A stretch of 64,000 nucleotides of DNA from Pseudohongiella sp. (GTDB lineage Bacteria > Pseudomonadota > Gammaproteobacteria > Pseudomonadales > Pseudohongiellaceae). The stretch spans positions 1 through 64,000 of the forward strand of contig JAUSCD010000035.1 in NCBI GenBank assembly GCA_030651695.1. Direction: 5' to 3'. Positions 24,537 through 40,754 of the stretch are shown one piece after another. Under the pieces are notes generated by a model that was not told the DNA's origin, ran no database searches, and was given only the letters and a program-made list of their open reading frames with translations. A program made the translations under genes and the position numbers. How positions within the stretch are numbered: position 1 is the stretch's first letter; every line of letters begins with the position of its first letter.

Positions 24537-24643
24537 TGTTCTTGATCTCCGTGAACAAGTTCATTAATTGCACAAAAGGCTACAACGGAATGGCGCAGGA
24601 ATCTACTGTCAGAAGTGCGTATTCCGGCAGGTTTTTTACATTT

Positions 24644-25504
24644 TTATGTCTCTTTGTCCCAAACCATCACCTGATAACGGGTCCATCCGCGTTTCAGACA
24701 TATCTGGAGCGCCGTGCCACCGGCCAGATTGTGCCAATACGACCACGGCACAGGCACCCGAGTGAGCTGGCTAAGTGTTGTCAACAGCAGTGGGTGAAAT
24801 GGCCGCGTGTACGCTGACAAATCGTTAGTGTCAGTCAATCTGAAACCAGCTTGTCCGGCTGCAGCGTCAGCCTCCAATGCTGTGACCAGGTTATTCAGAT
24901 GCCAGCCACGTTTGAATCGGTTGACCCAAAAGGATGCGGCAGAATGGTCTGTTGCTGACGCCAGAAAGTCATCGCATATTATCAGTCGTCCACCTGGCTT
25001 GAGCTGCCGGGCCGCCATCGCAAAGAATGAACCGGCATTGCGGGCGTGCACAAAAGATTCTATCGCGAAGGCCACGTCAACTGGCGCTATATCCGGCATG
25101 TCAGCGAAATCACCCTGCAAAAACCGGCACTGCTGATCCAGGCCTGAGGCCAACGCTCTTTTGTGGGCCAGTTGCTGCTGCCCGGAACTGATGGTGACAC
25201 CCGTGATATGCACCGCCAATGCCTTTGCCAGCCAGGTCGACGTTCCACCGACCCCGCAGCCGAGATCCAGCACAGTTGTCGGTTCCGGCTCGCGGCTGAT
25301 GCAGGGGATGATTGCTTCCGCAACCAACTGGTTAAGGTAGTTGAAAGCCTCCGCTTTGTTGGTCACTCCCGGCGCCCAGATTGCCCGGTGAATTGCTGCC
25401 ACTTCACCACTGCCTCCCAGCGCCAGGAATTTTCCGGTATTTTTGTCGTAATAGGCTGCTATATCGCCAGCATTTACCGCCTGATCTTTGCTGGAAACCG
25501 ACAT
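24644..25504 (-). CDS. SAM-dependent class I methyltransferase
   Basis: 286 residues from the ATG at 25504, which has AAGGTGG upstream; a GTG at 25513 is alternative. Motif I VLDLGCGVGGTSTWLA binds the SAM adenosine/methionine, followed by ITGVTISSGQQQLA, FLQGDFADMP (acidic loop) and LKPGGRLIICDDF. The N-terminal YYDKNTGKFLALGG segment resembles small-molecule methyltransferases acting on sterols, tocopherols or polyketide-type phenols. Substrate is unknown. It lies alone, divergent from the MAPEG gene. Confidence 0.8.
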   Translation of the reverse strand: MSVSSKDQAVNAGDIAAYYDKNTGKFLALGGSGEVAAIHRAIWAPGVTNKAEAFNYLNQLVAEAIIPCISREPEPTTVLDLGCGVGGTSTWLAKALAVHITGVTISSGQQQLAHKRALASGLDQQCRFLQGDFADMPDIAPVDVAFAIESFVHARNAGSFFAMAARQLKPGGRLIICDDFLASATDHSAASFWVNRFKRGWHLNNLVTALEADAAAGQAGFRLTDTNDLSAYTRPFHPLLLTTLSQLTRVPVPWSYWHNLAGGTALQICLKRGWTRYQVMVWDKET

Positions 25505-25625
25505 GTCCGCCACCTTGTAAAAACGTCACTTGTGTATTGCGTCCGCGCTGCCTATGATCGGCGACATCAGGCAGATAGTACAGCCTGAATCCTGGCGGCT
25601 GAAATAATTATTAAAAGGAAAAACA

Positions 25626-26009
25626 ATGGAACTCGTCGCGATTGTGGTGTTGTTGTCTCTGGTTCAGTACACAGTGTTTGGTGCCTTGGTGGGCAAAGCC
25701 CGCATGAAGTATAAAGTGGAAGCTCCGGCTGTTACCGGCGATCCTGTTTTTGAACGCTATTACCGCGTGCACATGAACACACTCGAAAGTCTGGTGTTAT
25801 TTGTCCCGTCAATTTTCATCTTTGCAATGTATGTGCGGCCGGACCTGGCAGCAGCACTGGGCGTGGTTTTTATTGCCGGCCGTCAGCTTTATCTGCGCGC
25901 CTATGTTAAAGACCCCAAATCTCGCGAGCTCGGTTACGTACTGACGATTCTGCCTTCTGCCATTCTGGCAATTGGTGGAATCATTGGCGCTGCGCTGCGA
26001 CTGGTTTGA
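25626..26009 (+). CDS. MAPEG family membrane protein
   Basis: 127 residues, four hydrophobic helices. The family motif is visible as FERYYRVHMNTLES (E-R-x-x-R-x-H-x-N-x-x-E), which in MAPEG proteins (microsomal glutathione S-transferase, leukotriene C4 synthase) helps bind glutathione in the membrane. Bacterial members may conjugate glutathione to lipophilic electrophiles. A purine-rich AAAAGGAAAAAC precedes the ATG. It lies 64 bases upstream of the CDP-alcohol phosphatidyltransferase gene in the same direction. Confidence 0.83.
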   Translation: MELVAIVVLLSLVQYTVFGALVGKARMKYKVEAPAVTGDPVFERYYRVHMNTLESLVLFVPSIFIFAMYVRPDLAAALGVVFIAGRQLYLRAYVKDPKSRELGYVLTILPSAILAIGGIIGAALRLV

Positions 26010-26073
26010 TTCGCTCCCCGCACCATAAACCATGCAATAGCGTGACCAGATATACCGACTTGCAAGGACACCG

Positions 26074-27189
26074 GTGAGCGGCATCAAGACAGAAACAAGC
26101 ACAATTGCGCTGGCAGGATTCGCTGGTTTACTGCTATGCGCATTGGGCCTTGGCTCATTTGTCTCACCAGAGGCGGCGCTGTGCTGGGCATTGGTGAGCA
26201 CACTGATATGGATGCTGGTCTGGCAGCAGACACACAGCCGTTTGCAGGGCAATCGCGCAGACGCCTCATCACCGCTTTTCTCCGACCTTGGCTGGGCCAA
26301 TCGCATGACAATAGGTCGTGGCTGGCTGATCGCGGCCACAGGTGGTTTTCTGGCAATCCCTGACGCCTTGCCCGAGCAACCCATACTGGTGTGGATAGCG
26401 GCTGCCGCCTATTCAATTGCTGCCATTTTTGACCGGCTGGATGGTTTTGTTGCACGCAAAACTCAACGCGGCAGTTTGCTGGGCGCAGAGCTCGATACTG
26501 TGTTTGATGCGTTGGGCCTGATAGTTGCGCCTTTGCTGGCACTGCAACTGGGCAAAATACATTGGTCATATCTGCTGGTAAGTGTTGCCTATTACTTGTT
26601 TATGCTGGGCATCCAGTACCGCAAACGGAGTAACAAAGCGGTCTATCCGCTGGCATCCAGCAAACTGCGCAGAACCTTGGCTGGCTTCCAGATGGCTTAT
26701 GTTGCTGTTGTATTGTGGCCGCCTTTCCAGGCTGAAGTGACCGTTCTCTCCGGATTTGGTTTTATGCTGCCATTACTGGCGGGATTTTTAGTGGACTGGT
26801 TTGTGGTAAGCGGTCGTATTAATCCGTATGACATCAAAACCGCTCACCTGTTCGGGAGAATACAATTGATAGTTGACACTGTGCTGCTACCAGCTCTGCG
26901 CCTGTTGATGCTTCCTGCTGTTTATTATATTGCCGCCCACTCGCAATGGAACGTTATCAGCTTACTGATCGCCGGCCTGGCCATGTTGATGATTGTTCCC
27001 GGACTGGCCGGGCGAGCTGGCGCCATGGCACTCATGATGCTGCTGGCGTGGACCGTACCGGCGCCCATAACCGAATCAGTCATGCTACTGGTACTGTTCA
27101 GTGCAATTGCCATCGTACTTCTTGGTTGCGGCCGCTTCAGTCTGTGGCAGGCGGACGATGACTGGGTCAACCGTCAGGATGGTGCCTGA
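26074..27189 (+). CDS. CDP-alcohol phosphatidyltransferase family protein
   Basis: 371 residues from a GTG start. The catalytic signature D-x2-DG-x2-AR-x8-G-x3-D-x3-D is complete: FDRLDGFVARKTQRGSLLG, then AELDTVFDALG. About ten hydrophobic helices surround it, more than the six of PgsA or PssA, so it has an added C-terminal membrane part (about residues 240-371). The family transfers a phosphoalcohol from CDP-diacylglycerol or CDP-alcohol to an acceptor. The stop codon shares one base with the ATG of the next gene (TGATG), giving tight coupling to the flippase-like protein. This favours a role in making a membrane lipid. Confidence 0.85.
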   Translation: MSGIKTETSTIALAGFAGLLLCALGLGSFVSPEAALCWALVSTLIWMLVWQQTHSRLQGNRADASSPLFSDLGWANRMTIGRGWLIAATGGFLAIPDALPEQPILVWIAAAAYSIAAIFDRLDGFVARKTQRGSLLGAELDTVFDALGLIVAPLLALQLGKIHWSYLLVSVAYYLFMLGIQYRKRSNKAVYPLASSKLRRTLAGFQMAYVAVVLWPPFQAEVTVLSGFGFMLPLLAGFLVDWFVVSGRINPYDIKTAHLFGRIQLIVDTVLLPALRLLMLPAVYYIAAHSQWNVISLLIAGLAMLMIVPGLAGRAGAMALMMLLAWTVPAPITESVMLLVLFSAIAIVLLGCGRFSLWQADDDWVNRQDGA

Positions 27190-28235
27190 TGCCACAGTAT
27201 CGCTGGTTAGGTTTATTACTCTGGCTGATTGCTCTGGCATTGGTATCGTGGACGTTAAGCCATTTACCGCTGGAAGATATCGGCCAATCACTGTCAGCGC
27301 TTGGATGGGAACAATGGTCGGTGTGGGCGCTGGTGAATGGGCTGGTGATTATTATCGCAACAGTGCGCTGGCAAGTGCTGCTGCGCATGCTGGGGCACAG
27401 CGTCGGTTTTTTTGATCTGGTGGTGATCAAACAAGCCGGACAAACCATCAGCTTTATCACGCCCGGCCCCCAGTTTGGCGGCGAGCCTCTGCAAATATAC
27501 TGGTTATATAAACGCACAGGCATGGGCATTCATAGCGCTGTGTTAGCGCTGGGTATAGACCGCTTTTATGAACTCTGGATCAATTTCCTGGTATTGATGA
27601 TGGGAGTGATTCTGTTGCTGTTATCTCCCGGGTTCGGAGCGCACACGGGAGCCAACAACTGGCAACAGATTCTGGTGCTGATGAGCGTTTTATTACTGCT
27701 GCTGTCGGCGCTGGCGTATGCAGCGGTAAGACAGCCCCAACTGATCTCAGGTCGTCTGGAAAAACTCAGCGCACGCTGGCTAAGCAACCCCCGCCTCATG
27801 AACCTGGACCATCACTGGCATTCCATGGGTGCCGATTTGCGACTTGCTGTTGCCACAAAAAAACCGGCGCTGCTCAAGGCCCTCATGTTATCCGTGCTGG
27901 TCTGGGTGTTGATTGCGCTTGAGATGTGGCTGGTGCTGGGCTTTTTTGATATCACACTGGAGATCAGTGGACTGGTGCTGATTCTGGTTGCGATGCGGTT
28001 GGCCTTGCTGCTGCCGTTGCCGGGCGGCATAGGCACTCTTGAAGCATCTGTATTCTGGTCATTTCAATTGCTGCAGCTATCACCGACAGCCGCATTGGCA
28101 GTGATTGCTATCATGCGACTGCGCGACGCTCTGGTTTTGATTGCCGGTCTGGCATGCCTGCGCGTTGCTCAGAACGGTTCCGCGCAAGCGACGCCGGTGA
28201 TTAGTATGCCTTACGGTAAGCCGCCCAGCACGTAG
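27189..28235 (+). CDS. Flippase-like membrane protein (lysylphosphatidylglycerol synthase TM region / UPF0104 family)
   Basis: 348 residues, about eight membrane helices. The N-terminal LSHLPLEDIGQSLSALGWEQW, the loop SFITPGPQFGGEPLQIYWLYK and the later RLALLLPLPGGIGTLEASVFW match the MprF-like N-terminal flippase domain found alone in many bacteria (UPF0104/YbhN-like). In MprF this part moves aminoacyl-lipids across the membrane. There is no synthase domain. Directly coupled to the CDP-alcohol phosphatidyltransferase, it may flip that enzyme's product. The last 35 bases overlap the end of the convergent pterin-synthase-like gene. Confidence 0.8.
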   Translation: MPQYRWLGLLLWLIALALVSWTLSHLPLEDIGQSLSALGWEQWSVWALVNGLVIIIATVRWQVLLRMLGHSVGFFDLVVIKQAGQTISFITPGPQFGGEPLQIYWLYKRTGMGIHSAVLALGIDRFYELWINFLVLMMGVILLLLSPGFGAHTGANNWQQILVLMSVLLLLLSALAYAAVRQPQLISGRLEKLSARWLSNPRLMNLDHHWHSMGADLRLAVATKKPALLKALMLSVLVWVLIALEMWLVLGFFDITLEISGLVLILVAMRLALLLPLPGGIGTLEASVFWSFQLLQLSPTAALAVIAIMRLRDALVLIAGLACLRVAQNGSAQATPVISMPYGKPPST

Positions 28236-28578
28236 CATTTTCCCAAAGCTTTACGTTCAATGTTCCGGTACCCGGCGGATTGATATTGTCCAGCATGCGT
28301 TCGCAGATAATACGGCTGAAATGTTCGATGCTGGGATTCAGCCCTGCAAACTCAGGCTTGTCGTTGAGCAAGCTATCCCGAAAATCATCGACGATGCTGT
28401 TTAACGCAGCTTCAATTTCTACGATGTCGACAAGATAACCATGTTTGTCCAGTTCGGCCGCTTCAATACTGATCTCGGCAACGTAGTGGTGAGCGTGCGG
28501 AAAGTTTTCACTACCCCAGTCGCCTCCGATCAGAAAATGGTTGGCGATAAAATCCTTGGTGACGGCTACGGTATACAT
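28201..28578 (-). CDS. 6-pyruvoyl-tetrahydropterin synthase / QueD homologue with Glu at the catalytic Cys position
   Basis: 125 residues. The T-fold is recognised from FIANHFLIGG (first zinc His), NFPHAHHY (HxH zinc pair), the Asp in LVDIVEIEAALN and the PSIEHFSRIICERML segment with the conserved Glu-His. In QueD and PTPS the HxH is preceded by a catalytic Cys (C-x3-HxH). Here that position is Glu (E-x3-HxH), as in the PTPS-III group that cleaves the dihydroneopterin side chain to feed folate synthesis. It is therefore neither a standard QueD nor a standard PTPS. It is the last gene of the ribA-reductase-dehydrogenase operon, 16 bases after the dehydrogenase. Confidence 0.82.
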   Translation of the reverse strand: MYTVAVTKDFIANHFLIGGDWGSENFPHAHHYVAEISIEAAELDKHGYLVDIVEIEAALNSIVDDFRDSLLNDKPEFAGLNPSIEHFSRIICERMLDNINPPGTGTLNVKLWENATCWAAYRKAY

Positions 28579-28594
28579 GGATATTCCTTCTGAA

Positions 28595-29617
28595 TTAGTC
28601 GTAAACGAACAGAGCCTGCAAAACCTCTTCAGGCTTGTTATGCAGCAATTTGTACAGATCGTCAGCTTGCGCCAGCGCTCTGCGATGTGTGATCAGTGTT
28701 TGTGGCTGCAGACGCCTGATCATTTCCCAGGCGATTTCAAAGCGGCGTTTCTTGTCCCAGCGCCCGCTCAAGGCAGGCGCAAGCGTGCTGACCTGACTGG
28801 TAGAAATTCTCAACCGGTTACGGTGAGCGTCTCCCCCGAGAGCTATCAGGGCAGATTTATTGCCGTACCAGCTGCCAATTACAATACGACTGTCAAAACC
28901 ACTCAAACCAATCGCAAGATTCAAAGCATCGGGAACACCACTGACTTCATAAATCAGATCAGCGCCTGTTTCCAGCAACAGTTTTGACTTGAAATTGTCC
29001 AGATCGCCGCGCGGATCATAACTACCGGTGGCGCCAAGTGTTATGGAGGTTTCTCGTCGCTTGCTGATGGTATCCAGCGTATACAATGCAGCCAGCGGAC
29101 AAGCAGCAAGAATGCCAGATAACAATAAACCCACTATCCCTTGTCCCAATACAACAACGCGCTCACCAACCACAGGCGCGCCGTCCTGCACCAGATTCAC
29201 AGCGGTTTCCATATTTGGCAGAAACACCGCTGCCTGCGAATCCACGTCATCAGGCACCAGAATCAACTGGTCTGCGGTAGCAGTAAAATGTGACACATGG
29301 GGCTGAAATGAAAACACACGCTTACCCAACCAATTGCCAGCAACGTCTTTACCCGCGGATATCACTTCACCGACGCAGGCATAACCGTACTGCAAAGGAT
29401 ATGAAGCCTGTGATGCCAGCGAGGCCAGACTGGCATCCAGACTCATCTGATCCGGGAGCTGTCCGCGATAAACCAGCATCTCGGTGCCCGCGCTGATGGC
29501 CGAGCAAATACTCCTGACCAGCAGCTGATCAGGTGCCGGCTCTGCCATAACCATTGACCGCACCTCAAGGGACAATGGTGCGGTAAACCATAGCTGCTGG
29601 AGTAAACCGGTCATCAA
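28595..29617 (-). CDS. Zinc-type medium-chain dehydrogenase
   Basis: 340 residues. The MDR fold is clear: CSAISAGTEMLVYRG with the catalytic-zinc Cys, YPLQYGYACVGEV, KRVFSFQPHVSHF with the His ligand, the Rossmann motif VVLGQGIVGLLLSGIL and a Glu-containing GADLIYEVSG. The structural-zinc four-Cys loop of horse-liver-type enzymes is absent. The layout resembles BchC/threonine-dehydrogenase-like members. Oxidation of a hydroxyl on a ribityl or pterin side chain would fit its operon. It overlaps the reductase gene by four bases (ATGA). Confidence 0.8.
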   Translation of the reverse strand: MMTGLLQQLWFTAPLSLEVRSMVMAEPAPDQLLVRSICSAISAGTEMLVYRGQLPDQMSLDASLASLASQASYPLQYGYACVGEVISAGKDVAGNWLGKRVFSFQPHVSHFTATADQLILVPDDVDSQAAVFLPNMETAVNLVQDGAPVVGERVVVLGQGIVGLLLSGILAACPLAALYTLDTISKRRETSITLGATGSYDPRGDLDNFKSKLLLETGADLIYEVSGVPDALNLAIGLSGFDSRIVIGSWYGNKSALIALGGDAHRNRLRISTSQVSTLAPALSGRWDKKRRFEIAWEMIRRLQPQTLITHRRALAQADDLYKLLHNKPEEVLQALFVYD

Positions 29618-30345
29618 CTATTTCCATCGGTGGCGGGCACAGTGATGTTGTACTGCAATTTCCCCCACATAATCAAATCGTCGCCCAGCATACCGCTGAA
29701 CATCGGGGAGATTTGCGGCAACTCTTCTTTGGAGCCAAATTCCAAATCTGCGACAGCCTTATAGCCACCCACAAGTCGGGGCGCTACTGTCAACACCATG
29801 GCATCCACCAGTTTCTGTTTCAAAAAACCGGTAATCACATTAGCTCCGCCTTCCACCATCAGACTGTGGATACCACGCTGCTTTAACTCGAGCATCGCTT
29901 CATGCAGACAGACACGCCCTCCGGCGTCGCCGGGGAGACGAATAATTTCCAGATCAGTATGTTCTGGCGAAAGGCCGCCTGAGCTTGTCATAACCCAGCA
30001 GCGCTTGTCCGACAAATGGCATAATCTCGCATCTGGCGGGATTCTGAGATTGGCATCCAGCACAATCGGCTGCGGGTCAGGGCCGGGACACTGACGCACA
30101 TTAAGGCGCGGATTGTCGGACAACACAGTGCCGATTCCGACCAGAATCCCATCATGAATACTACGTAGCTGGTGAGTCAGCATGAGCGACTGATCACCGC
30201 TTAGCGCCAGCGATTCACCAGAGTGAAGTGTAATACTGCCGTCCCAGCTCTGAGCATAACTCAGGGTGACAAACGGACGATCTTTGTGCCGGCACTGCAC
30301 GCGCTGTTCAATAATCCAGCGCTCGATTTGCTGGTTGAGGCTCAT
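29614..30345 (-). CDS. RibD C-terminal-type reductase, stand-alone
   Basis: 243 residues of dihydrofolate-reductase-like fold. The motifs RPFVTLSYAQSWDGSI, DGILVGIGTVLSDNPRLNVR and LMVEGGANVITGFL are those of the reductase domain of bifunctional RibD. That domain uses NADPH to reduce the ribosyl of the GTP cyclohydrolase II product to ribityl. The deaminase domain is missing, so the product would remain a 2,5-diamino pyrimidine unless a deaminase lies elsewhere. It overlaps by four bases both with the upstream GTP cyclohydrolase II gene and with the downstream dehydrogenase gene. Confidence 0.85.
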   Translation of the reverse strand: MSLNQQIERWIIEQRVQCRHKDRPFVTLSYAQSWDGSITLHSGESLALSGDQSLMLTHQLRSIHDGILVGIGTVLSDNPRLNVRQCPGPDPQPIVLDANLRIPPDARLCHLSDKRCWVMTSSGGLSPEHTDLEIIRLPGDAGGRVCLHEAMLELKQRGIHSLMVEGGANVITGFLKQKLVDAMVLTVAPRLVGGYKAVADLEFGSKEELPQISPMFSGMLGDDLIMWGKLQYNITVPATDGNS

Positions 30346-30995
30346 TGGTCCCTGTGACGGAATGAATTCATCGGCATCATGTGATCCATGCGCTTGACCT
30401 TGGTAAGGAGGTAGGCTTCGTTGTCAGCGTTAACCGGAGCTTCAAGCGACACGCGCGAACTGACTCTGATACCTTCGGCCTGCAGCGCCGCAATTTTTAA
30501 CGGGTTATTAGTCATCAGTCGTACCGAGCTGACGCCCAGATCTTCGAGGATACAAGCTGCCAGCGAATATTCTCGCTCATCAGCCTTGTGTCCCAGCATC
30601 AGATTGGCATCCACTGTGTCATAACCCTGATCCTGCAAATTGTAGGCATCCAGTTTGGCCATCAGACCGATGCCACGACCTTCCTGACGCAGATATACAA
30701 TCACGCCATGGCCCTTTTCCGCAACCATGGCCATGGAGCGCTGCAACTGCTCACCGCAGTCGCATCTGCGGGAGCCCATCACATCGCCGGTGAAGCACTC
30801 TGAATGGACCCGCACCAGCACGTCATCGCAGGTAGAAACTTCTCCCATGCAAAATGCCAGATGCTCTTTGTTGTCAATCGAGTTGGTGTAGTACACCAAC
30901 TGGAAGTCACCGTGTTCGGTCGGAATACGACCCGAGGTCATGCGAGTGACCGTCGGTTTGGTTCTGGAAGTCTTGATAACACTGATATTTGACAT
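30342..30995 (-). CDS. ribA: GTP cyclohydrolase II
   Basis: 217 residues from the ATG at 30995; the frame runs 49 codons further upstream, but those residues are not family-like. The zinc site is C-x10-C-x-C (SECFTGDVMGSRRCDCGE) and the catalytic region reads VIVYLRQEGRGIGLMAKL, with the Tyr and Arg of the ring-opening mechanism. The enzyme opens GTP to 2,5-diamino-6-ribosylamino-pyrimidinone 5'-phosphate, releasing formate and pyrophosphate. It lacks the RibB (DHBP synthase) domain and no other riboflavin gene except the reductase is here. As the first gene of a four-gene operon it may serve a pathway other than flavin. I see no FMN riboswitch in the leader. Confidence 0.9.
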   Translation of the reverse strand: MSNISVIKTSRTKPTVTRMTSGRIPTEHGDFQLVYYTNSIDNKEHLAFCMGEVSTCDDVLVRVHSECFTGDVMGSRRCDCGEQLQRSMAMVAEKGHGVIVYLRQEGRGIGLMAKLDAYNLQDQGYDTVDANLMLGHKADEREYSLAACILEDLGVSSVRLMTNNPLKIAALQAEGIRVSSRVSLEAPVNADNEAYLLTKVKRMDHMMPMNSFRHRDQ

Positions 30996-31146
30996 AGTGC
31001 GGCATACTACGGCCCTGCCTTTTATTAGGCAAGCGACCGCTCCTGTTAGCTTGTGGTTGTTGACTGATACGCTCACCACTGCCTTCCGGTTTAATGGCAG
31101 ACAAAATAGCTGGTGGAATGTTGTTTGAGCATTTGCATACAATGGC

Positions 31147-31192
31147 GGCCCTATAGCTCAGAGCGGACCCTGCTTTGCTCCCAGATCTCTAT
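31147..31192 (+). other. Stretch resembling the 5' half of a tRNA-Ala
   Basis: The sequence contains cctatagctcag followed, at nearly the spacing expected in a tRNA, by ccctgctttgc. Bacterial tRNA-Ala(UGC) genes read ctatagctcag and then cctgctttgc, in the D-arm and anticodon arm. The D-loop is shortened, the anticodon stem does not close and no T-arm or CCA end follows, so this is not a working tRNA. It may be a decayed fragment or coincidence. It overlaps the TTG start of the glycosyltransferase gene. Confidence 0.3.
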
Positions 31193-32236
31193 TTTATAAT
31201 TCCCGGAAACCTGCACACACTGACTGGTGGTTATGCCTATGACCGCGAACTCATTGCCGGCCTTCAGAGTCTGGGCATCAGGGTTCATCATATCACTGTG
31301 TCAGCGCGATACCCTCTTCCTGACGCTGAAGCGGAAGCAGAAACGGCGCGTCTGATAGCGGCCATACCGGACAACGCGGTAATATTGGCCGACGGTCTTG
31401 CATACGGTGCTATGGATAACATTGCCCGCATAGAACATCAACGGCTGAAAATCATCGCCCTCTGTCATCACCCACTGGCCTTTGAGTCCGGACTCGATAC
31501 CCGATTGCAATCACATTTATTCAAATCGGAGAAAGCAGCACTGGAACTTGCGAGAGCTGTTGTTGTTACCAGCCCGGCCACCGCCCGACTTCTGAGCAAT
31601 GCTTTTGGGGTTGCTGAAAACAAAATCACGGTGGCCCTGCCTGGCACTCAAAAGCAGGCTTTTGCCCCGTGCATGGGGCATCCGCCTGTGCTGCTGACTG
31701 TAGCCACACTTATCCAGCGCAAAGCCCATGACGTGCTGATTGATGCCTTGTCGCGTCTGACTTATCTGGACTGGAGCGCGCGTTTTGTCGGCGGCGACCA
31801 ATTCGATCCGGAGTGGGCAGCATTTTTGAAAAAAAGGACTGAGACACTTGGCCTTGCCGAGCGTATCAGCTTTGTGGGTAACGTCAGTGATCTGAACCCG
31901 GAATATGCCAATGCCGATGTGTTTGTGCTGCCATCCAGATTTGAAGGCTACGGTATGGTATTCGCCGAAGCACTTGCTGCCGGTTTGCCGATTGTTGCAG
32001 CGCGTGCCGGCGCTGTTCCCGATGTCGTGCCTGAAACTGCAGGCATGCTGATTCCACCTGACGACGCCACCAGACTGGCTTTTGCATTGCATACCATGCT
32101 GACTGAACCGCAACAGTATCAGGCACTGAGACTGGGTGCGCAGCAGGCGGCTGCAAGCTTGCCAGACTGGCAACAGAGCGCCGCACAAGTTGCAGATTTG
32201 CTGCAGACCATTAACGCTACAGGACAAGACACATGA
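31175..32236 (+). CDS. GT4-family glycosyltransferase
   Basis: 353 residues. The only usable start in frame is the TTG at 31175, since a stop lies seven codons upstream. The N-terminal IIPGNLHTLTGGYAYDREL is the acceptor-side loop, and the C-terminal half has the donor-binding TLIQRKAHDVLIDAL and the E-x7-E motif FEGYGMVFAEALAAGLP of GT-B retaining glycosyltransferases. It should transfer a sugar from a nucleotide-sugar in the cytoplasm. It is divergent from the ribA operon and its stop overlaps the methyltransferase start by ATGA, so sugar transfer and methylation are likely consecutive steps. Confidence 0.85.
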   Translation: MLPDLYFIIPGNLHTLTGGYAYDRELIAGLQSLGIRVHHITVSARYPLPDAEAEAETARLIAAIPDNAVILADGLAYGAMDNIARIEHQRLKIIALCHHPLAFESGLDTRLQSHLFKSEKAALELARAVVVTSPATARLLSNAFGVAENKITVALPGTQKQAFAPCMGHPPVLLTVATLIQRKAHDVLIDALSRLTYLDWSARFVGGDQFDPEWAAFLKKRTETLGLAERISFVGNVSDLNPEYANADVFVLPSRFEGYGMVFAEALAAGLPIVAARAGAVPDVVPETAGMLIPPDDATRLAFALHTMLTEPQQYQALRLGAQQAAASLPDWQQSAAQVADLLQTINATGQDT

Positions 32237-33030
32237 GTGGATTTTCAATTGACTGGCTGGATCTGCGTGAACCAGCAGACTTTGGAGCCAGAGACAAAAA
32301 TCTCGCCGCGCAGCTGGTTGATTTTCTGCAAGCTGACACAGAGATTTCTCCGATTGTTGTAGATCTGGGGTCAGGCACCGGTTCCACTCTCAGAGCACTG
32401 ACAAAGCTGGGCGCGCACAGATGTGTCTGGCGACTGGTGGATCATAATCCTGCGCTTTTGAACGAAGCCCTCCGCCGACACGGGCAGGATGAAATTGTTG
32501 AAGACTACGAAGCTGACTTGCTGGATGTGAGCTCTTTGCCATTGGGCGGCGCATCACTACTGTCGGCATCAGCGCTGTTTGATCTTGTGTCCGGACAAGT
32601 TGTTGACGCTGTGGTCGCCCGCATAAAAAAACAAGGTACAGCTTTTTATGCTGCGCTTAATTATGACGGCCGCACTGAATGGACTCCGGCCCACGCTTTG
32701 GACAAGGTCGTACTCGCAGCCTTCAATCTGGATCAGCAACGTGATAAAGGCATGGGGCCTGCACTGGGCCCGGAGTCTGCAGCTTACTTAAAAGCTGCGC
32801 TTGAAGGTGCCGGGTATACTGTTTACACCGGCGACAGCCCCTGGCAGCTGGGTCCGGATCAACAGGCACTAATGGCGGACTTGATACGCGGCATTCGTTC
32901 AGCGGTGTCTGCAGACTACGGGCTGGATCAACAAGCGCTGGATGAATGGGAAAACTTTCGCCTGGCACATGTCACTGATGGCCGCTGCCTGATCGGCCAC
33001 TCGGATGTGCTTGCGTTTGCCCACATCTGA
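32233..33030 (+). CDS. SAM-dependent methyltransferase
   Basis: 265 residues. Motif I is PIVVDLGSGTGSTLRAL; an acidic end of strand 2 (WRLVDHNPALL), a YEADLLDV loop and ALFDLVSGQVVDAVV complete the Rossmann-fold methyltransferase. The substrate is not evident. It is translationally coupled to the GT4 gene and ends one base from the end of the convergent LTA-synthase-like gene. I infer that it belongs to the same pathway as the ribA operon on the opposite strand. Confidence 0.8.
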   Translation: MSGFSIDWLDLREPADFGARDKNLAAQLVDFLQADTEISPIVVDLGSGTGSTLRALTKLGAHRCVWRLVDHNPALLNEALRRHGQDEIVEDYEADLLDVSSLPLGGASLLSASALFDLVSGQVVDAVVARIKKQGTAFYAALNYDGRTEWTPAHALDKVVLAAFNLDQQRDKGMGPALGPESAAYLKAALEGAGYTVYTGDSPWQLGPDQQALMADLIRGIRSAVSADYGLDQQALDEWENFRLAHVTDGRCLIGHSDVLAFAHI

Positions 33031-33031
33031 A

Positions 33032-34699
33032 TCAATGAGAGAACGTTTCCACAAAACGGTTTCTAACAATATCCATGGGCCACACAGGGGCATTATCGGC
33101 TGGCAACATTCCCGGGGTCCATTGCCAATCAGCGATCGCTTGCATAACAGCGGGATCCGAACTGATGATGTGTGTCATCACATCCGGCACTGAGGCGCCA
33201 TCTGCAATCAGCGGCATGGGTTGATGATCTCCCAATATGAATACCACCAGGTCCTCATCTCCGTATTCGATCACATACGACACCAGAGTCCTGATGACAT
33301 ACTCAACCGAATCGCGGTACTGACTCATTAACAAATCCCGATCAGCCCACACCTGATCGGTGCGCGGGCCGCGACGCGCCTGCTCGTTAAATTCGGAACC
33401 GTCTGTAATCAGATCCCAGTCAATAAGATCAGGGACCGGAGTCCAGGGCGCGTGCGAGGAAATCAGAGCGATTTCAGCCATGATGGGTTTGCGATCCTGT
33501 AAATTGCGCTCTTGCTGAACCCGGGCAAGTGTAAACTGGTCAGGCATGGTGACATAATTGAACGGCAGCCCGCGATAATCCAGCGCAGACGCATCGTACA
33601 ACTTGTCGTACCCGAAATATTGCCCTTCCGGCCATGCCATGGTGATTGCAGGCATTACACCCAGAGTGCGCCACCCGGCTCGCTGGAATAACCGGATCAA
33701 CGTTGGTCGCTGACTCATCATCAGCGCGTCATAACGCAGCTGGCTGTCAATCCACAAACCCGACATCGCCGTGCCGTGTGCCAGCCAACTTAAACCGCCG
33801 ATGGTTGAAGATGCAAGGAAGGCGCTTGATGACGCATAACCGCCGGCAACCAAGGCGTCAGTTGCCTCATTCAAAAGCGGACGAATTGCTGGTGCATAGC
33901 GCTGACTATCCAGCAGCACGCGACCATAAGATTCAACAAATATCACCAGTACATCCTTGCCCTGTAAAGCGCCAAACAGCTGGTCTCCCGCAACATTGTC
34001 ATACACGTCCTGTTTGATGATTTCACGAAACTCCTGCAGCTCTGCAATGCTGTTTACGGCAGTGCGCATGTGCATAGTGAGCTGATCTATAAAATAACGC
34101 GACGCTCCGCCCCAGCCGTTAGTAAACGCCACACTCCAGAGAACCAGATACAGAGCCAATGCACTGCCGGACCATCTCAGAGAGACGCTCTTAAGCAAAT
34201 GCTGTATCCGTTGCAACGAAAAATATGTCAGCACAAAAATCAACAGCACCAGCATGGTTGCAATCGATGCCACCAACAACGCTCCAGCGAACCCGATACT
34301 GGACGCCAGCAAGTTAAACCCGTCAGACAACAGATACGTATCCAGCACCGGATTAAACGGGCGCGCAAAAACCATAAAAGCAGACATATCCGAGAGCCGG
34401 AAGATCAGACCCGCGGCAATCACAATCGCAGACAACCAAAGGCTCAAGCGCCCGGCCATCGCAGGCAGCAACAACAGCGCTGAAAAAACCACGACTTCCA
34501 GCGGTACATAAAGGATGTACCACCACTGCAGCCAGTCCAGGCGATTGGGAATTACAAAAATCGAAAAAATAAACCAGATCGCCAGCAGATTCAGGACAAT
34601 CTGACTGGTCGGGTGTCGATAAGTCCGGAGCAGGAGGTTCATAAGGAAAAGAGCTGCATGCGAGGGTTCTTTCAAAAAGTTGGAAAAAAGATGCGCCAC
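33032..34699 (-). CDS. LTA-synthase-like membrane sulfatase-fold transferase
   Basis: 555 residues from a GTG at 34699 with GGAAGG four bases upstream; an ATG at 34642 has no ribosome site. About five N-terminal helices anchor a large periplasmic domain. That domain has DVLVIFVESYGRVLL (first metal Glu), SSTIGGLSWLAHGT (nucleophile Thr/Ser region), and FILGDHQPMPLI near the C-terminus (metal Asp-His). This is the alkaline-phosphatase-superfamily layout of LtaS, OpgB and EptA-type enzymes, which transfer phosphoglycerol or phosphoethanolamine from a lipid to a glycan on the periplasmic side. With a CDP-alcohol transferase and a flippase nearby, decoration of a lipid or glycan is likely. Confidence 0.78.
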   Translation of the reverse strand: MAHLFSNFLKEPSHAALFLMNLLLRTYRHPTSQIVLNLLAIWFIFSIFVIPNRLDWLQWWYILYVPLEVVVFSALLLLPAMAGRLSLWLSAIVIAAGLIFRLSDMSAFMVFARPFNPVLDTYLLSDGFNLLASSIGFAGALLVASIATMLVLLIFVLTYFSLQRIQHLLKSVSLRWSGSALALYLVLWSVAFTNGWGGASRYFIDQLTMHMRTAVNSIAELQEFREIIKQDVYDNVAGDQLFGALQGKDVLVIFVESYGRVLLDSQRYAPAIRPLLNEATDALVAGGYASSSAFLASSTIGGLSWLAHGTAMSGLWIDSQLRYDALMMSQRPTLIRLFQRAGWRTLGVMPAITMAWPEGQYFGYDKLYDASALDYRGLPFNYVTMPDQFTLARVQQERNLQDRKPIMAEIALISSHAPWTPVPDLIDWDLITDGSEFNEQARRGPRTDQVWADRDLLMSQYRDSVEYVIRTLVSYVIEYGDEDLVVFILGDHQPMPLIADGASVPDVMTHIISSDPAVMQAIADWQWTPGMLPADNAPVWPMDIVRNRFVETFSH

Positions 34700-34829
34700 C
34701 GGGCCTTCCGGTATACGTCCGGCGCAGTATACCGGATGAGAATTATTGTCATACAGGAAAGACTATAGGTAAACTCGGGTCTCCTACTTGATATGCCACA
34801 CCCAATCTATAAACAACAATTGAGGACTG

Positions 34830-35831
34830 ATGACGATGACTGATCATACACAAGGTAAACACCGCTCTCCTGTGTTAAGCCGTCGCCACTTTATTGGCGC
34901 CAGCCTTGGAGCCGGTGCCGCATTGGCATTTAACCCCGGTTTTCTGGCGTTTGCCCAGGAAGCTGCACTGATTACACGCGCCATACCTTCAACAGGAGAG
35001 CTGATTCCTGCTGTTGGTCTGGGCAGCTCCGCCACCTTTGCTCAAGTGGCACGCAGCGAAGACATCAGTGCGCTGCAATCGGTTTTTGCACGTATGGCGG
35101 AACTGGGAGGTCGCGTATTTGATACGGCCCCCAGCTACGGCGCGTCAGAGGAAGTCGCAGGGCAGATTGTTCAGGGCCTGGGTCTGCAGGAAACCCTGTT
35201 CTGGGCTACCAAACTCAACGTTGCGGGTCGCGGCGGCAGCCCTGCCGATCCTGCCGCGGCACGGGCTCAGTTGGAGACCTCCTTCCAGCGCATCGGCAAA
35301 CCCGTGATTGATCTGATTCAGGTTCACAATATGGGCGATCCCGCCGTGCAGTTGCCCCTGTTACGCGAACTCAAGGAGCAGGGCCGCATCCGTTATGTGG
35401 GGATAACCACTACATTTGAAGAGCAGTATGACAGTTTGATTCAGGTAATGCGGAATGAACCGCTGGACTTCATCGGTATTGATTACGCTGTGGACAATCG
35501 CGATGTTGAAGAGGTAATTCTCCCGCTGGCCATGGAGCGCGGCATTGCAGTATTGAACTACGCCCCCTTCGGCCGCACGCGTTTGTGGGCCCGGGTGGGC
35601 GACAGACCGGTACCTGATTATGCACACGAGTTTGATGCCCACACCTGGGGCCAATTTTTCCTGAAGTTCGTACTGGGCCATCCTGCCATCACCGCTGTGA
35701 CGCCTGCTACCAGCCGGCCAGGCAATATGGAAGACAATATCGGGGGTATGCTGGGAAGACTTCCGGATGCTGCTATGCGCCAGCGTATGATTGCGACCGT
35801 TGAGGCGCTGCCCGCGGCACCTTCAGCCTGA
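34830..35831 (+). CDS. Tat-exported aldo/keto reductase
   Basis: 333 residues. The N-terminus has the twin-arginine signal LSRRHFIGAS followed by a hydrophobic stretch ending near AFAQEA, so the folded protein is exported. The AKR active site is present: VFDTAPSYGASEEV (Asp and Tyr), FWATKLNV (Lys) and DLIQVHNMGD (His). The Tat route fits a cofactor-bound NADP(H) enzyme or a reductase using another donor, since free NADPH is absent from the periplasm. A hairpin terminator follows the stop. Confidence 0.87.
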   Translation: MTMTDHTQGKHRSPVLSRRHFIGASLGAGAALAFNPGFLAFAQEAALITRAIPSTGELIPAVGLGSSATFAQVARSEDISALQSVFARMAELGGRVFDTAPSYGASEEVAGQIVQGLGLQETLFWATKLNVAGRGGSPADPAAARAQLETSFQRIGKPVIDLIQVHNMGDPAVQLPLLRELKEQGRIRYVGITTTFEEQYDSLIQVMRNEPLDFIGIDYAVDNRDVEEVILPLAMERGIAVLNYAPFGRTRLWARVGDRPVPDYAHEFDAHTWGQFFLKFVLGHPAITAVTPATSRPGNMEDNIGGMLGRLPDAAMRQRMIATVEALPAAPSA

Positions 35832-35854
35832 GTAGCATCGCGAATGGACATAAT

Positions 35855-35897
35855 AAAAGGACGGGAAACCTGTGCTTCAGGACTTCCTGCCCTTTTT
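35855..35897 (+). terminator. Hairpin terminator after the aldo/keto reductase gene
   Basis: Aaaaggacgggaa and ttcctgccctttt form an imperfect 13-bp stem ending in a run of five T. It begins about 24 bases past the stop. A second small GC palindrome (35904-35919) stands just before the stop of the convergent kinase gene. Confidence 0.6.
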
Positions 35898-35919
35898 GTC
35901 CGACGCGCTGACGAGCGCG

Positions 35920-38085
35920 CTAATAATTATCAAGCACCATTCTCAATTTTTCCGCCAATGCTCTCAGACGGAATGGCTTGCTGAGCAGGTGCACGCCCGG
36001 GTCGAGTCGTCCGTGGTGAACAATGGCGTTTTCCGTGTAGCCTGACATGTACAACACTTTCAACCCAGGCTGCAATTTCACGGCTTCAAGCGCCACCTCC
36101 TTGCCTGAAATGCCTCCAGTCAGCACCACATCGGTAAACAACAGATCAAACTGGTTACCGGCACGAATCAAATCCAGTGCACCCGCGCCGTTACTGCATT
36201 CTGTAACCTGATAACCCAGGCCTTTCAAACTTGCGGATGCGTAGTGCCGCACCAGATCATCATCTTCCACCAGCAATACGCGCTCGCTGCCGCCCCGATT
36301 GACCCGACTTGATGACGATGACTGCCCACCGCGGATAGTCGCGTCAGACTTTGATGCAAGAGGCAGGTACAGCCGCACTGTCGTTCCTTCTCCCGTCTCA
36401 CTATAAATTTTTACGTTGCCTTGCGACTGGCGTGCAAAACCATACACCATCGCCAGACCAAGTCCTGAGCCTTTGCCCTCGGCTTTGGTGGTAAAAAACG
36501 GATCAAACACGCTGGCCAACACATCGGCAGGGATTCCGTATCCGGTGTCAGATACAGCGATAACGACGTAGTGCCCTGGTTTTAACTGATTACGTTCGCC
36601 GTACTCCTCGTCGACCTCGATATTGGCTGCTTCAATTGTCAGTTTGCCGCCATCCGGCATGGCGTCACGGGCATTCAGAGACAGATTGATCAATGCATTC
36701 TGCAGTTCATGTGGATCAACCAGAGCTTTGCCGAGATTGTCATTCACTATCAGCTCTATCTGGATATTTTCCTTGACCGTTCGTCTCAGTAAGTGTTTTA
36801 CCTCGGCCACCAGTTCGTTTACGTCGGTGGCGCGCGGATCAAGCGGCTGGCGTCTGGCAAATGCCAGCAAGCGGTGGGTCAACTCTGCGGCGCGCTCACC
36901 GGCCAGACGGATGACATCGGCCTGACTGCGTATGTGCTCTGGTTTGTCATGCAGGTGCTCCAGCACGTCATCGATGTTTCCGAGTATCACCGTTAACAGG
37001 TTATTAAAATCATGTGCAATACCTCCGGTAAGCTGACCCAGTGCGTCCATCTTATGCGACTGACGCAGTTGCGCCTCCACCTGTTGCCGGGCACGCAATT
37101 CCTCCAGCGCAAATTTTTGCGCTTCAACAGTCTGTCGTTGGCGACCCACTACAATAATGATTCCTATCGATATGCCAATAAACAGGGCCATTATCAAACC
37201 CCCAATCCCGACACTGGCCACCAGACGCCGCCGCCAGTCCTGCAAAGCAGCAAACTCTGACATATTGGCATACACAATCAGTTGATCGTTCCATGTGTAA
37301 CGGAATGCTGATATGCGGGGGGCGTTCTGTAAGTAGGTCAGGTCAACCGTCCGGCCACCCACTTCGGTATTATTCAACTCGATAAACTGCGAGGTGTCTG
37401 TTATGTCGATTGCCATCAACTGCGCCTCAAAGGGGCTGCGTGCAATCACATGACTGTCTGCGGTCAGCAATCCAACCGCACCATCGTCGGGTCTGATTGC
37501 GTCGTAAAATACCAGCAAGTGCTCCATGGACAACAATGCCACCGCGACGCCGGCAAAACTTCCGTCTTCAAAAGGCACACGCCGGCTTACCGGGATCACC
37601 CATTGTCCACGATGGCTGCCAAATTCCGCCAAACGGGGTTTTGAAACCAGCACATTCGCTTGCAGCGACAGAGGCTCCAGGAGCGTGGCTTTATGGAAAA
37701 GAAATTCCTCAGTAGAAGATTGATCAACCGGTTCCGGATCTGCATCTTGTGAGCTGACAACAACACGCCCTGCGCTATCAATCACATAAAAGGCATAGGT
37801 GTTGGAAGAGATAGTCTGGCGGTTTATGGCTACCTGATGCATTGCTTCACGCGCCTGCTCAGTGTCGAGTCCGATGCGTAAAGCCTGTAATGTCAGCTGC
37901 GACAAGTTCAGGTCCAGCGCGCGCAAAGTCTGCTGCGTGTGTTCTTGCAACGCTGTCGCAACCAATTCCAGATCAGTGTATGCCTTTTCCATCACCCGTT
38001 CGCGATCGTCGCTTGCCAGCAGGTAGATGGTCACAGACAGCAGCACTGCAATAAACAGATTACTGGCCAGAAACAATATTTTCAT
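35920..38085 (-). CDS. Hybrid sensor histidine kinase with periplasmic Cache-like domain and receiver
   Basis: 721 residues from the ATG at 38085 (GGAG seven bases upstream; a TTG at 38091 is also in frame). The order is: TM helix (about 1-25), periplasmic dCache-like sensor (about 30-275), second TM helix ([20 protein letters not shown]), coiled segment, HisKA with [17 protein letters not shown], HATPase with DTGYGIP and [13 protein letters not shown], and a C-terminal receiver with [13 protein letters not shown] and [11 protein letters not shown]. No DNA-binding partner is adjacent, so the output regulator must lie elsewhere. The ligand is unknown; Cache domains often bind small carboxylates or amino acids. 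Confidence 0.87.
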
Positions 38086-39631: not shown

Positions 39632-40417
39632 TCAACGTACAGGGAAATCGAAATACTCATCCGGGAAAGGCTCGTCAATCAATGTGTAATGCCACCACTC
39701 CTGGTCATAGTTACGGAATCCTGCTGCTTCCATGATTTCACGCAGCAAGTGCCGGTTTTGCAGAACATCGGGGCCAACTACAATGTTATCGGTATGTGAG
39801 CGCGGATCAAAGCAGTCATAGCCTGTGCCCATGTCAATGCTATTGTCCGGGAAACGCTCACTGGCATCCGCCCGGCAATCGTATTGTTGCGCCAGGGGAT
39901 CCGCGTCAGGTATCGATGAACCAAGCGGCACCAGTGTCAGATCAACTGTACTGCCACGACTGTGGCCCGACCGCTCAGCAATGTAACCGAGTTCGAACAA
40001 CCGGGCCTTTGGGACTTCAGGATAGTAACTGAGCAACATGAGCTCATCGCCCAGATCTGCGCCCCATCTCATAAAATCATTAACAGCTGTCTGAGGCCGA
40101 TAGCAGTCGTAAAGTTTTAACGAAAGCCCAAGCTGATTGACCATAGCCTGCACTTCGACCAACGCGAACGCAGCCGGGGTTGTCAGAATACACTCAGGTG
40201 CTTCGTAAGCAGCAACCGGGCGCCCAAGAAAATTGTTACTGCCGAAATAACGCATATCCTGCTGAATACTGCCATCCAGTTCGGATATCCTCGAAAAACC
40301 ATCGTGAAGGCCGGCGGCAGCAAGGGGAATTGGAGTGTTCTGATCAATTGTTGAATCACCCGAGCACTGCGTCAGGGCGACCAGGGAAAACACAACAAGG
40401 CACGTGCGCAATTTCAA
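39632..40417 (-). CDS. D-alanyl-D-alanine dipeptidase (VanX/DdpX-like, M15D)
   Basis: 261 residues from a TTG at 40417, chosen because GGAGGG stands seven bases upstream and the signal peptide then starts properly (MKLRTCLVVFSLVALTQC). A lipoprotein Cys at 18 is possible, though Gln before it is unusual. The M15D motifs are complete: LYDCYRPQTAVNDF (Arg), RSGHSRGSTVDLTL (Zn His and Asp) and DQEWWHYTL (catalytic Glu and Zn His). The enzyme cleaves D-Ala-D-Ala in peptidoglycan turnover or scavenging; in VanX this gives glycopeptide resistance, but no VanA/VanH-like genes are nearby. Periplasmic. It probably shares an mRNA with the RNase J-type gene. Confidence 0.87.
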   Translation of the reverse strand: MKLRTCLVVFSLVALTQCSGDSTIDQNTPIPLAAAGLHDGFSRISELDGSIQQDMRYFGSNNFLGRPVAAYEAPECILTTPAAFALVEVQAMVNQLGLSLKLYDCYRPQTAVNDFMRWGADLGDELMLLSYYPEVPKARLFELGYIAERSGHSRGSTVDLTLVPLGSSIPDADPLAQQYDCRADASERFPDNSIDMGTGYDCFDPRSHTDNIVVGPDVLQNRHLLREIMEAAGFRNYDQEWWHYTLIDEPFPDEYFDFPVR

Positions 40418-40754
40418 TTCATTACCCTCCGGATTAGCAATACAAGAGCAGGACCAGGCAAAAGGCACGGCCCGCATGACCACAGTCAGCTCAGATGTTC
40501 AGTGAGAATGCCCATCACACGCTTACTTGTAAATAGCGGGACCAAATCCGGTTCGCCGCTGACTTTAGCCTGATTGTTTGCAGAAACAGACGTTAAGCGT
40601 CTGGCAGGTATGAAAAAATGCCGTTTAGCGTGCCTAATAGCACAAAAGCACTACATCGTCACTTCCCCCCCCTGTTCAGAGCTGGTCAATACGGCTGGGA
40701 CTATGCCAGAATGAGGCCTTCTACAAGGAATATCCGGTTGGAGGCAGTGACAAG
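40418..40754. other. Intergenic region before the small membrane protein gene
   Basis: About 340 bases between the divergent VanX-like gene and the 41-residue membrane protein gene. The only structure noticed is a cagacg-ttaag-cgtctg inverted repeat at 40587-40603, a possible operator or hairpin. A 62-codon plus-strand frame starting at 40618 has no ribosome site and no protein-like pattern. Confidence 0.4.

Follow-up and report, generated by a model that had tools for sequence, protein, structure and literature searches.

The pterin glycosides of cyanobacteria (biopterin glucoside, cyanopterin) carry a sugar on a GTP-derived pterin, which in cyanopterin is a methylated sugar. Their synthesis starts from GTP cyclohydrolase I and a true PTPS, and we know of no lipid transferase or flippase that acts with them. 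A related function is predicted for the subject of this work, a nine-gene locus of Pseudohongiella sp. at positions 26074–34699 of a 64,000-nucleotide stretch (the window) from contig 35 (JAUSCD010000035.1) of a 3.86 Mb genome (GCA_030651695.1). The phosphatidylinositol mannoside route is also similar in function, as a synthase of the CDP-alcohol phosphatidyltransferase (CDP-OH) type and GT4 glycosyltransferases (PimA/PimB) act on a lipid-linked headgroup; however, that headgroup is inositol, whereas the headgroup genes of the window would supply a GTP-derived ring. The PTPS-fold protein of the window has its best PDB match, in both sequence and fold, in SCO6650 of Streptomyces coelicolor (PDB 3d7j), although identity in the fold alignment is 22%. 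The paper on SCO6650 reportedly describes a protein with neither zinc nor the triad that is inactive as a PTPS, and names no product of a pathway. The closest neighborhood is that of PTPS-IV proteins (COG0720, signature FGPAQ), which likewise contains GTP cyclohydrolase II and RibD; in contrast, the window PTPS reads WGSENFPHAHHY, and the dehydrogenase tree places the window enzyme in its other main branch. PF00925 and PF01872 near PTPS-IV were noted in 2017 in the relevant part of the AGeNNT paper (PMC5445326), which describes PF00925 as GTP cyclohydrolase I including FolE2 and, unlike what is seen in the window, names no glycosyl, methyl or lipid genes there. A preliminary description of the window had stated that its author knew of no described pathway containing this set. 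This holds for the set as a whole, for which we found no description and no product report in the open-licence literature (absence from print is not implied), and as far as we found the locus is uncharacterized; however, the PTPS-IV neighborhood was in print in 2017 (PMC5445326, part concerned) and the structure of the relative SCO6650 is in the PDB.

On balance, we favor the interpretation that this is a dedicated locus for a GTP-derived, probably pterin-like, methylated glycoside, which would be lipid-tethered in many hosts and would stand apart from riboflavin, folate and queuosine synthesis. Comparison of sequences establishes which genes form the set, that they are conserved, that housekeeping copies exist apart from them and that the PTPS site is altered. 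The nine open reading frames (ORFs) are intact and lie where the preliminary description placed them; family calls are based on Pfam and NCBIfam scores relative to the cut-off of each family (in parentheses).

26074–27189, plus strand: CDP-OH, CDP-alcohol phosphatidyltransferase family membrane protein; PF01066 CDP-OH_P_transf, 60.1 bits (22)
27189–28235, plus strand: flippase, LPG_synthase_TM/flippase-like membrane protein; PF03706, 117.7 bits (33.4), and TIGR00374, 85.9 bits (43.2)
28201–28578, minus strand: PTPS-fold protein; PF01242, 92 bits (22.4)
28595–29614, minus strand: ADH, MDR dehydrogenase, BchC-like; ADH_zinc_N, 23.7 (below 31.8), best NCBIfam match BchC
29614–30345, minus strand: RibD reductase, stand-alone RibD C-terminal domain; PF01872 RibD_C, 141.7 bits (24.1)
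30342–30995, minus strand: RibA, GTP cyclohydrolase II; GTP_cyclohydro2, 232.4 bits (23.3), and TIGR00505, 253.3 (205.85)
30996–31040, minus strand: non-coding block 5' of ribA; alignment of the window with five relatives
31175–32236, plus strand: GT4 glycosyltransferase; PF13692 Glyco_trans_1_4, 106.4 bits (27)
32233–33030, plus strand: MT, class I S-adenosylmethionine (SAM) methyltransferase; Methyltransf_25, 22.7 (below 27), and family alignment
33032–34699, minus strand: LtaS-like sulfatase-superfamily membrane protein; PF00884 Sulfatase, 32.7 bits (25)

Recurrence of the gene set and separate housekeeping copies

The first eight protein families (RibA, RibD, ADH, PTPS, GT4, MT, CDP-OH and flippase, leaving the LtaS-like protein aside) were scored at each locus. 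In an even draw of Pseudomonadota genomes, an ADH profile built from 14 rows matched 19 of 299. The resulting sample of 18 loci excludes our own genome and a second ADH locus of one genome (L158 of G353) that had none of the other genes. PTPS and GT4 were found at all 18 loci, RibD and MT at 16 each, an MdoH-like gene at 9, RibA, CDP-OH and flippase at 7 each, cytochrome b561 at 6, YceI at 3, and LtaS-like and creatininase genes at 2 each. As a control, 20 stretches of 19.5 kb taken arbitrarily from these genomes contained one GT4 in all; the profiles used in this control came mostly from cluster members, so that the background is underestimated and the copy numbers in our own genome are a better guide. 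At these copy numbers, about 0.2 PTPS, 0.2 RibD_C and 0.3 CDP-OH genes would be expected in 18 stretches as long as these. Judged from these low copy numbers and from recurrence across phyla, the grouping of the genes exceeds chance.

Among near relatives, an ADH match of at least 131 bits was present in 45 of 95 genomes, with none between 131.3 and 50.2 bits; these were 42 of 59 genomes of the same family (our own included) and 3 of 36 from other families of the order. Those of their loci that were examined retain the set; L037, L038, L039, L040 and L042, for example, had all eight genes in rearranged order. A scan of named genomes gave at least 585 confirmed ADH relatives, of which the best 80, chosen by ADH similarity and thus biased to the window type, were used; they include very near relatives, short contigs, two loci of one metagenome-assembled genome (MAG; L050 and L051) and several contigs already represented among the near relatives, and the labels Klebsiella pneumoniae and Rhodoferax are doubtful MAG labels. 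Pseudohongiella, Cellvibrio, Methylomonas, Saccharospirillum, many Chloroflexota, Opitutales, Thermodesulfobacteriota and two Methanomassiliicoccaceae MAGs were represented. In Methylomonas sp. LW13 (L061), MT was the only one of the eight genes that was not detected. At the 45 named loci of at least 17 kb, PTPS occurred at 45, GT4 at 44, RibD at 35, MT and flippase at 33 each, RibA at 32, CDP-OH at 29 and the LtaS-like gene at 12. Counts were lower at Chloroflexota-labelled loci of all lengths (n = 30): RibA 14, RibD 15, CDP-OH 8 and flippase 13.

Plasmid records extended this range. Fifteen of the 30 ADH matches listed were fetched and 14 were kept (L134 from Nonomuraea, with two ADH matches, no PTPS and no annotation, was excluded), derived from Haloarcula, Halomicrococcus, Methylosinus, Rhizobium, Microbacterium, Thiodictyon, Rhodobacterales, Agrobacterium, Streptomyces, Arthrobacter, Natronorubrum and Haladaptatus. 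They carried ADH (14), PTPS, GT4 and MT (13 each), CDP-OH (8), RibD (7), flippase (4) and RibA (4). The five haloarchaeal loci all had ADH, GT4 and MT, four had PTPS (the fifth a weak match) and three had CDP-OH. The Rhizobium and Agrobacterium records were complete (eight of eight), and the Streptomyces fungicidicus locus had CDP-OH, ADH, PTPS, GT4, MT, flippase, creatininase and RibA, with no RibD in the stretch. In Microbacterium, seven of the eight genes (all but RibA) were carried by a plasmid of 59 kb that is classed as mobilizable (L131), which suggests that the gene set may be mobile. Altogether, the full or near-full set recurred in Gamma- and Alphaproteobacteria, Opitutales, some Chloroflexota and Actinomycetota. 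The preliminary description had held that conservation limited to very close relatives would refute its idea; instead, the neighborhood reaches other phyla and the core reaches Archaea. On this comparative evidence, the locus is real, and ancient or widely transferred.

The genome itself carries further copies of several of these families. It has three GTP cyclohydrolase II matches (the window, C6:98151 and C6:101337), two RibD_C matches, two PTPS-family genes (133.9 bits on contig C15, 91.2 bits in the window), three CDP-OH genes and a GTP cyclohydrolase I. Contig C6 groups a full-length RibD frame (416 residues), a GTP cyclohydrolase II and the third match, the last in a frame of 382 residues. 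Because of these separate copies of GTP cyclohydrolase II, RibD, PTPS, CDP-OH and GTP cyclohydrolase I, the window set is additional.

Active-site residues and the proposed pathway

In QueD/PTPS-I and true PTPS, a Cys (within CxxxHGH) and an Asp-His dyad are catalytic. The window PTPS lacks them and falls outside these classes (TIGR03367 43.1 vs 89.25): by alignment numbering the Cys position is Glu24, and Asp-His aligns with Arg-Asp. This was found even though PTPS genes in the annotated records examined are named 6-carboxytetrahydropterin synthase. It also lacks the ExxHGH given for PTPS-III in the pertinent part of PMC5041015, as the window reads ENFPHAH (ExxxHxH, with the Glu one place further), and WGSEN stands where PTPS-IV has FGPAQ; the PTPS-IV neighborhood (PF00925 and PF01872 nearby) is present. 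FGPAQ was carried by 12 of 102 PTPS homologues examined and goes with the second branch of the ADH tree. In the first branch most PTPS proteins have WGxENxPHxHHY or something close to it; those of haloarchaea are more divergent. His14, Glu85 and Glu113, the last presumably the pterin-site Glu, were invariant in 37 PTPS sequences; the HxH pair was variable. An AlphaFold2 model (pLDDT 96.5) matched 3d7j best, followed by QueD, PTPS and, weakly, dihydroneopterin aldolase. Together with the altered site, this makes it very probable that the window protein has a pterin-like ring as its ligand but does not perform the known PTPS reaction.

RibA is a GTP cyclohydrolase II with Cys67, Cys78, Cys80, Tyr118 and Arg141 present; in this family the Cys triad binds zinc, the Arg is catalytic and the Tyr allows deformylation. 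Tyr118 was found in 69 of 71 aligned RibA sequences (including that of the window, contigs fetched twice and the C6 copies); one sequence ends earlier, and that of Streptomyces has Met and adjoins a creatininase-family gene. In S. coelicolor SCO6655, the Tyr to Met change reportedly leaves the ring formylated, so that a creatininase-family deformylase is then wanted. By analogy, the creatininase-family protein may be the deformylase partner of the Met118 RibA, although the creatininase-family proteins scored below every NCBIfam cut-off, ArfB included. The RibD reductase belongs to RibD_C by PF01872 (TIGR00227 148.3, just below 150.15), and RibD and 2,5-diamino-6-ribosylamino-pyrimidinone phosphate reductases predominate among its PDB matches; it is not a bifunctional RibD, having 243 residues with RibD_C as the only Pfam domain and no N-terminal deaminase domain.

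ADH is not a member of BchC (TIGR01202 67.8 vs 291.25). It apparently lacks the GHE and Cys of the usual catalytic zinc ligands, the alignments showing GYA and SAISAGTE there, and its ORF is also open from a TTG at 29617. In the ADH tree (77 rows, thinned set), two groups each had an SH-aLRT of 100. The first contains the window type together with Chloroflexota and haloarchaea; alphaproteobacteria and Actinomycetota fall in the second, as do the Pseudomonadota loci of the even draw. The closest named relatives were two Pseudohongiella MAGs and isolate LSUCC0112. Of the ADH matches, 55 plasmid records from Enterobacter were excluded as unrelated (the 26 rows viewed all had 25.5% identity); a Citrobacter record with the same match values is annotated YcjQ.

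CDP-OH contains the full catalytic motif DRLDGFVARKTQRGSLLGAELDTVFD and so conforms to DxxDGxxAR...GxxxDxxxD, the motif of CDP-alcohol phosphatidyltransferases; both PDB sequences matched are phosphatidylserine synthases. The PDB matches of GT4 include D-inositol 3-phosphate glycosyltransferase and PimA/PimB-type enzymes. For MT, an AlphaFold2 model (pLDDT 96.0) matched general, partly uncharacterized methyltransferases alone, and the structure search gave no pointer to a substrate. The LtaS-like protein fits no NCBIfam family and has no PDB sequence match at E 0.01. It was named as a component of the cluster in the preliminary description, but the locus counts do not support it as part of the core: it occurs at 12 of 24 non-Chloroflexota named loci of at least 17 kb, at none of 21 Chloroflexota-labelled ones and at 2 of the 18 sampled Pseudomonadota loci (15 of all 80 named loci). 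We therefore regard it as an optional accessory. Likewise, nothing was found in favor of the ribitol-phosphate-like polymer proposed there.

We propose the following sequence of reactions. RibA would open GTP to 2,5-diamino-6-ribosylamino-pyrimidinone phosphate, and the RibD reductase would reduce the ribosyl to a ribityl chain, with no deamination, giving 2,5-diamino-6-ribitylamino-pyrimidinone phosphate, a product that is established pathway knowledge for this pair. ADH may then oxidize a chain hydroxyl, for which C2' is proposed, and the PTPS-fold protein may grip the 2-amino-4-oxo ring and aid its reshaping or closure. The ketone that oxidation at C2' would give is that of the GTP cyclohydrolase I Amadori intermediate, and its condensation with the 5-amino group would yield dihydroneopterin phosphate with GTP cyclohydrolase I bypassed; on chemical reasoning, a pterin is thus the likeliest result. 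GT4 and then MT would produce a methylated glycoside. In many hosts, that of the window included, CDP-OH would add a phosphatidyl-type anchor and the flippase-like protein would turn the anchored product outward; in some, the LtaS-like enzyme would pass the phospho-headgroup to an outer acceptor. The RibA and RibD reactions come from family knowledge; the later reactions, the pterin nature, the step order and the lipid anchor we infer by reasoning. The idea of an integrated pathway from GTP ring opening to glycosyl, methyl and lipid-type transfer, already present in the preliminary description, is supported by the recurring gene set, and the membrane linkage of the product is still a prediction from the gene content.

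Gene fusions (RibA-RibD in L099, L111 and L113; GT4-MT in L035, L143 and L147) and a replacement of the first step speak for a single pathway. In Haloarcula halophila a GTP cyclohydrolase IIa (315.7 bits vs 306) precedes ADH in the place of RibA, and in three Haloarcula records (H. halophila and, by match annotation, two others) the two genes overlap or adjoin. A phosphatase-family gene (PF04029, family confirmed for L107) separates ADH from PTPS at nine Chloroflexota loci, and at a tenth such a gene follows ADH, where the locus ends.

The junctions within the window, as read from the sequence, are as tight as first described. Of the four couplings, ATGA joins RibA to the RibD reductase and GT4 to MT, and TGATG joins the RibD reductase to ADH and CDP-OH to the flippase; the convergent ends of flippase and PTPS overlap by 35 bases and those of MT and the LtaS-like gene are in contact. 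About 40 non-coding bases 5' of ribA (30996–31040) are partly conserved in the window and five relatives; they contain a promoter-like TTGCCT-17-TAGTAT, 8 bases before the ATG, which is absent from the sites of the consensus scan. A near-leaderless ribA transcript may possibly start from this element. ARAGORN detected no tRNA in the window, and the interval 24000–36000 gave no Rfam match at gathering threshold.

Several genes near the core were also recorded. A second SAM methyltransferase, weakly cyclopropane-fatty-acid-synthase-like, lies just beyond the cluster (24644–25513) and is kept in near relatives (L047, L049); by translation reading, an aldo/keto-reductase-like gene (34830–35831) follows the LtaS-like gene and a VanX-like D-Ala-D-Ala dipeptidase-like protein is encoded at 39632–40483. 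Elsewhere, MdoH-type genes adjoin or lie near the core at L034, L070, L129, L148, L150–L153, L155 and L156, mostly in the second branch, with cut MdoH-like matches at the stretch edge of L144 and L147; they are a hint of periplasmic glucans. Cytochrome b561 (PF01292, checked for L135) lies beside the core at L070, L082, L130, L132, L135, L148, L150, L152, L153, L155 and L156, and YceI (PF04264, checked for L044) recurs at 16 loci, with some contigs counted twice, and also at L144 and L147. The LtaS-like enzyme, MdoH, cytochrome b561 and YceI, all optional, suggest a role in the envelope. A protein of about 110–145 residues, hydrophobic by eye and with no Pfam match in the one case searched (L088), is found repeatedly in Chloroflexota and haloarchaea (L088, L093, L097, L098, L103, L104, L105, L110, L115, L116, L121, L124, L127, L139 and L140) and directly adjoins CDP-OH in the last two. 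Gfo/Idh/MocA oxidoreductases are encoded at two Haloarcula loci (L127, 8691–10427; L139, 6933–8900, fused to an aldo/keto reductase).

Points against the pathway and alternative explanations

Several observations weigh against a lipid-tethered pterin glycoside made by one pathway. CDP-OH and flippase are each absent at 11 of the 18 even-draw loci, and CDP-OH is missing from 14 of 21 Chloroflexota-labelled loci of at least 17 kb; the anchor may therefore be an add-on or neighboring module. RibA is also absent at 11 of 18 even-draw loci, where other RibA genes would be needed. None of the five haloarchaeal loci has RibA, RibD or flippase, with CDP-OH in just three, and the two Methanomassiliicoccaceae loci showed ADH and PTPS alone. 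The PTPS metal site is inconstant (HxH becomes NxH or HxA), and the reaction is therefore not guessable from known PTPS enzymes. Our genome has a GTP cyclohydrolase I, making a second dihydropterin route unneeded for folate. Finally, the pairing of a Met118 RibA with a creatininase rests on one case, and L143 combines Tyr with a creatininase-like gene.

The gaps in CDP-OH and flippase are the basis of the alternative that survives best, which we nevertheless consider improbable, namely that a methylated pterin glycoside in soluble form is the product of ADH, PTPS, GT4 and MT together with RibA/RibD, and that CDP-OH and flippase (with or without the LtaS-like gene) form a separate lipid module that travels with them. 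The frequencies of ADH, PTPS, GT4 and MT (18, 18, 18 and 16 of 18 loci) against those of CDP-OH and flippase (7 each) favor it, as do the known cyanobacterial pterin glycosides (pertinent part of PMC13259868). However, gamma- and alphaproteobacteria, Actinomycetota and some Chloroflexota keep CDP-OH next to the core, as do three of the five haloarchaeal loci, and this co-location far exceeds what its rate of three per genome would give.

A small molecule of another kind, still derived from GTP but formed with no pterin ring (for example a modified pyrimidine or a toxoflavin-like antibiotic), appears unlikely. Toxoflavin synthesis also starts with RibA and RibD homologues, and ring closure in the present locus is a proposal; on the other hand, the PTPS fold and the conserved pterin-site Glu suggest a pterin or an open-ring pterin analogue.

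The tethered-glycoside interpretation could also be extended to glucans: CDP-OH would make a phosphatidyl-X that is flipped, and the LtaS-like enzyme would move phospho-X to osmoregulated periplasmic glucans or a comparable acceptor. An MdoH-type gene adjoins ADH at 7 of the 18 sampled Pseudomonadota loci (identity checked for L034, L129 and L148), two more stretches have the cut match at their edge, and LtaS-like genes are found at named loci as counted above. Yet MdoH was seen at 1 of the 80 named loci and not at the window locus, it seldom shares a locus with CDP-OH or the LtaS-like gene, and the latter matches no named family or PDB sequence. This extension seems quite unlikely.

F420 synthesis also begins from a RibA/RibD-type intermediate. 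A statement on PTPS-IV involvement, given as unpublished work in the pertinent part of a 2016 review (PMC5041015), would favor such a role, which we consider highly improbable here. CofH (TIGR03551) was above cut-off in none of 15 genomes of the genus (our own and 14 others), 14 of which carry ADH; among 35 genomes of the family, it was missing in 21 of 26 with ADH and present in 5 of 9 without. The PTPS-IV branch was represented in this search by one genome (G077), with no CofH above cut-off. An F420 role is thus unlikely in Pseudohongiella and was rejected for this genus.

That RibA and the reductase are plain housekeeping riboflavin genes is hardly credible and was rejected: RibA passes its family cut-off and has the expected residues and the reductase passes the Pfam cut-off, but the second riboflavin set, whose absence the preliminary description had named as fatal to its idea, exists on contig C6.

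Implications for a possible membrane-linked pterin

A bolder version of the favored interpretation, tentative and rather doubtful, is a pathway, its core spanning Bacteria and Archaea, for a GTP cyclohydrolase I-free pterin that is glycosylated, methylated, anchored to a phospholipid and flipped outward, possibly as a redox or signaling group of the envelope. To our knowledge, no membrane-tethered pterin has been known so far, and this would be the first. According to the section concerned of a 2026 review (PMC13259868), the crossing of membranes by bacterial pterins is unexplained and no pterin efflux system has been identified; with a flippase-like protein and a lipid-type transferase beside pterin-like genes, this question becomes directly testable. 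The locus is common, its ADH occurring in 19 of 299 evenly drawn Pseudomonadota genomes, and its core is found in both Bacteria and Archaea. If true, the pathway would assign functions to PTPS-IV and its sister branch.

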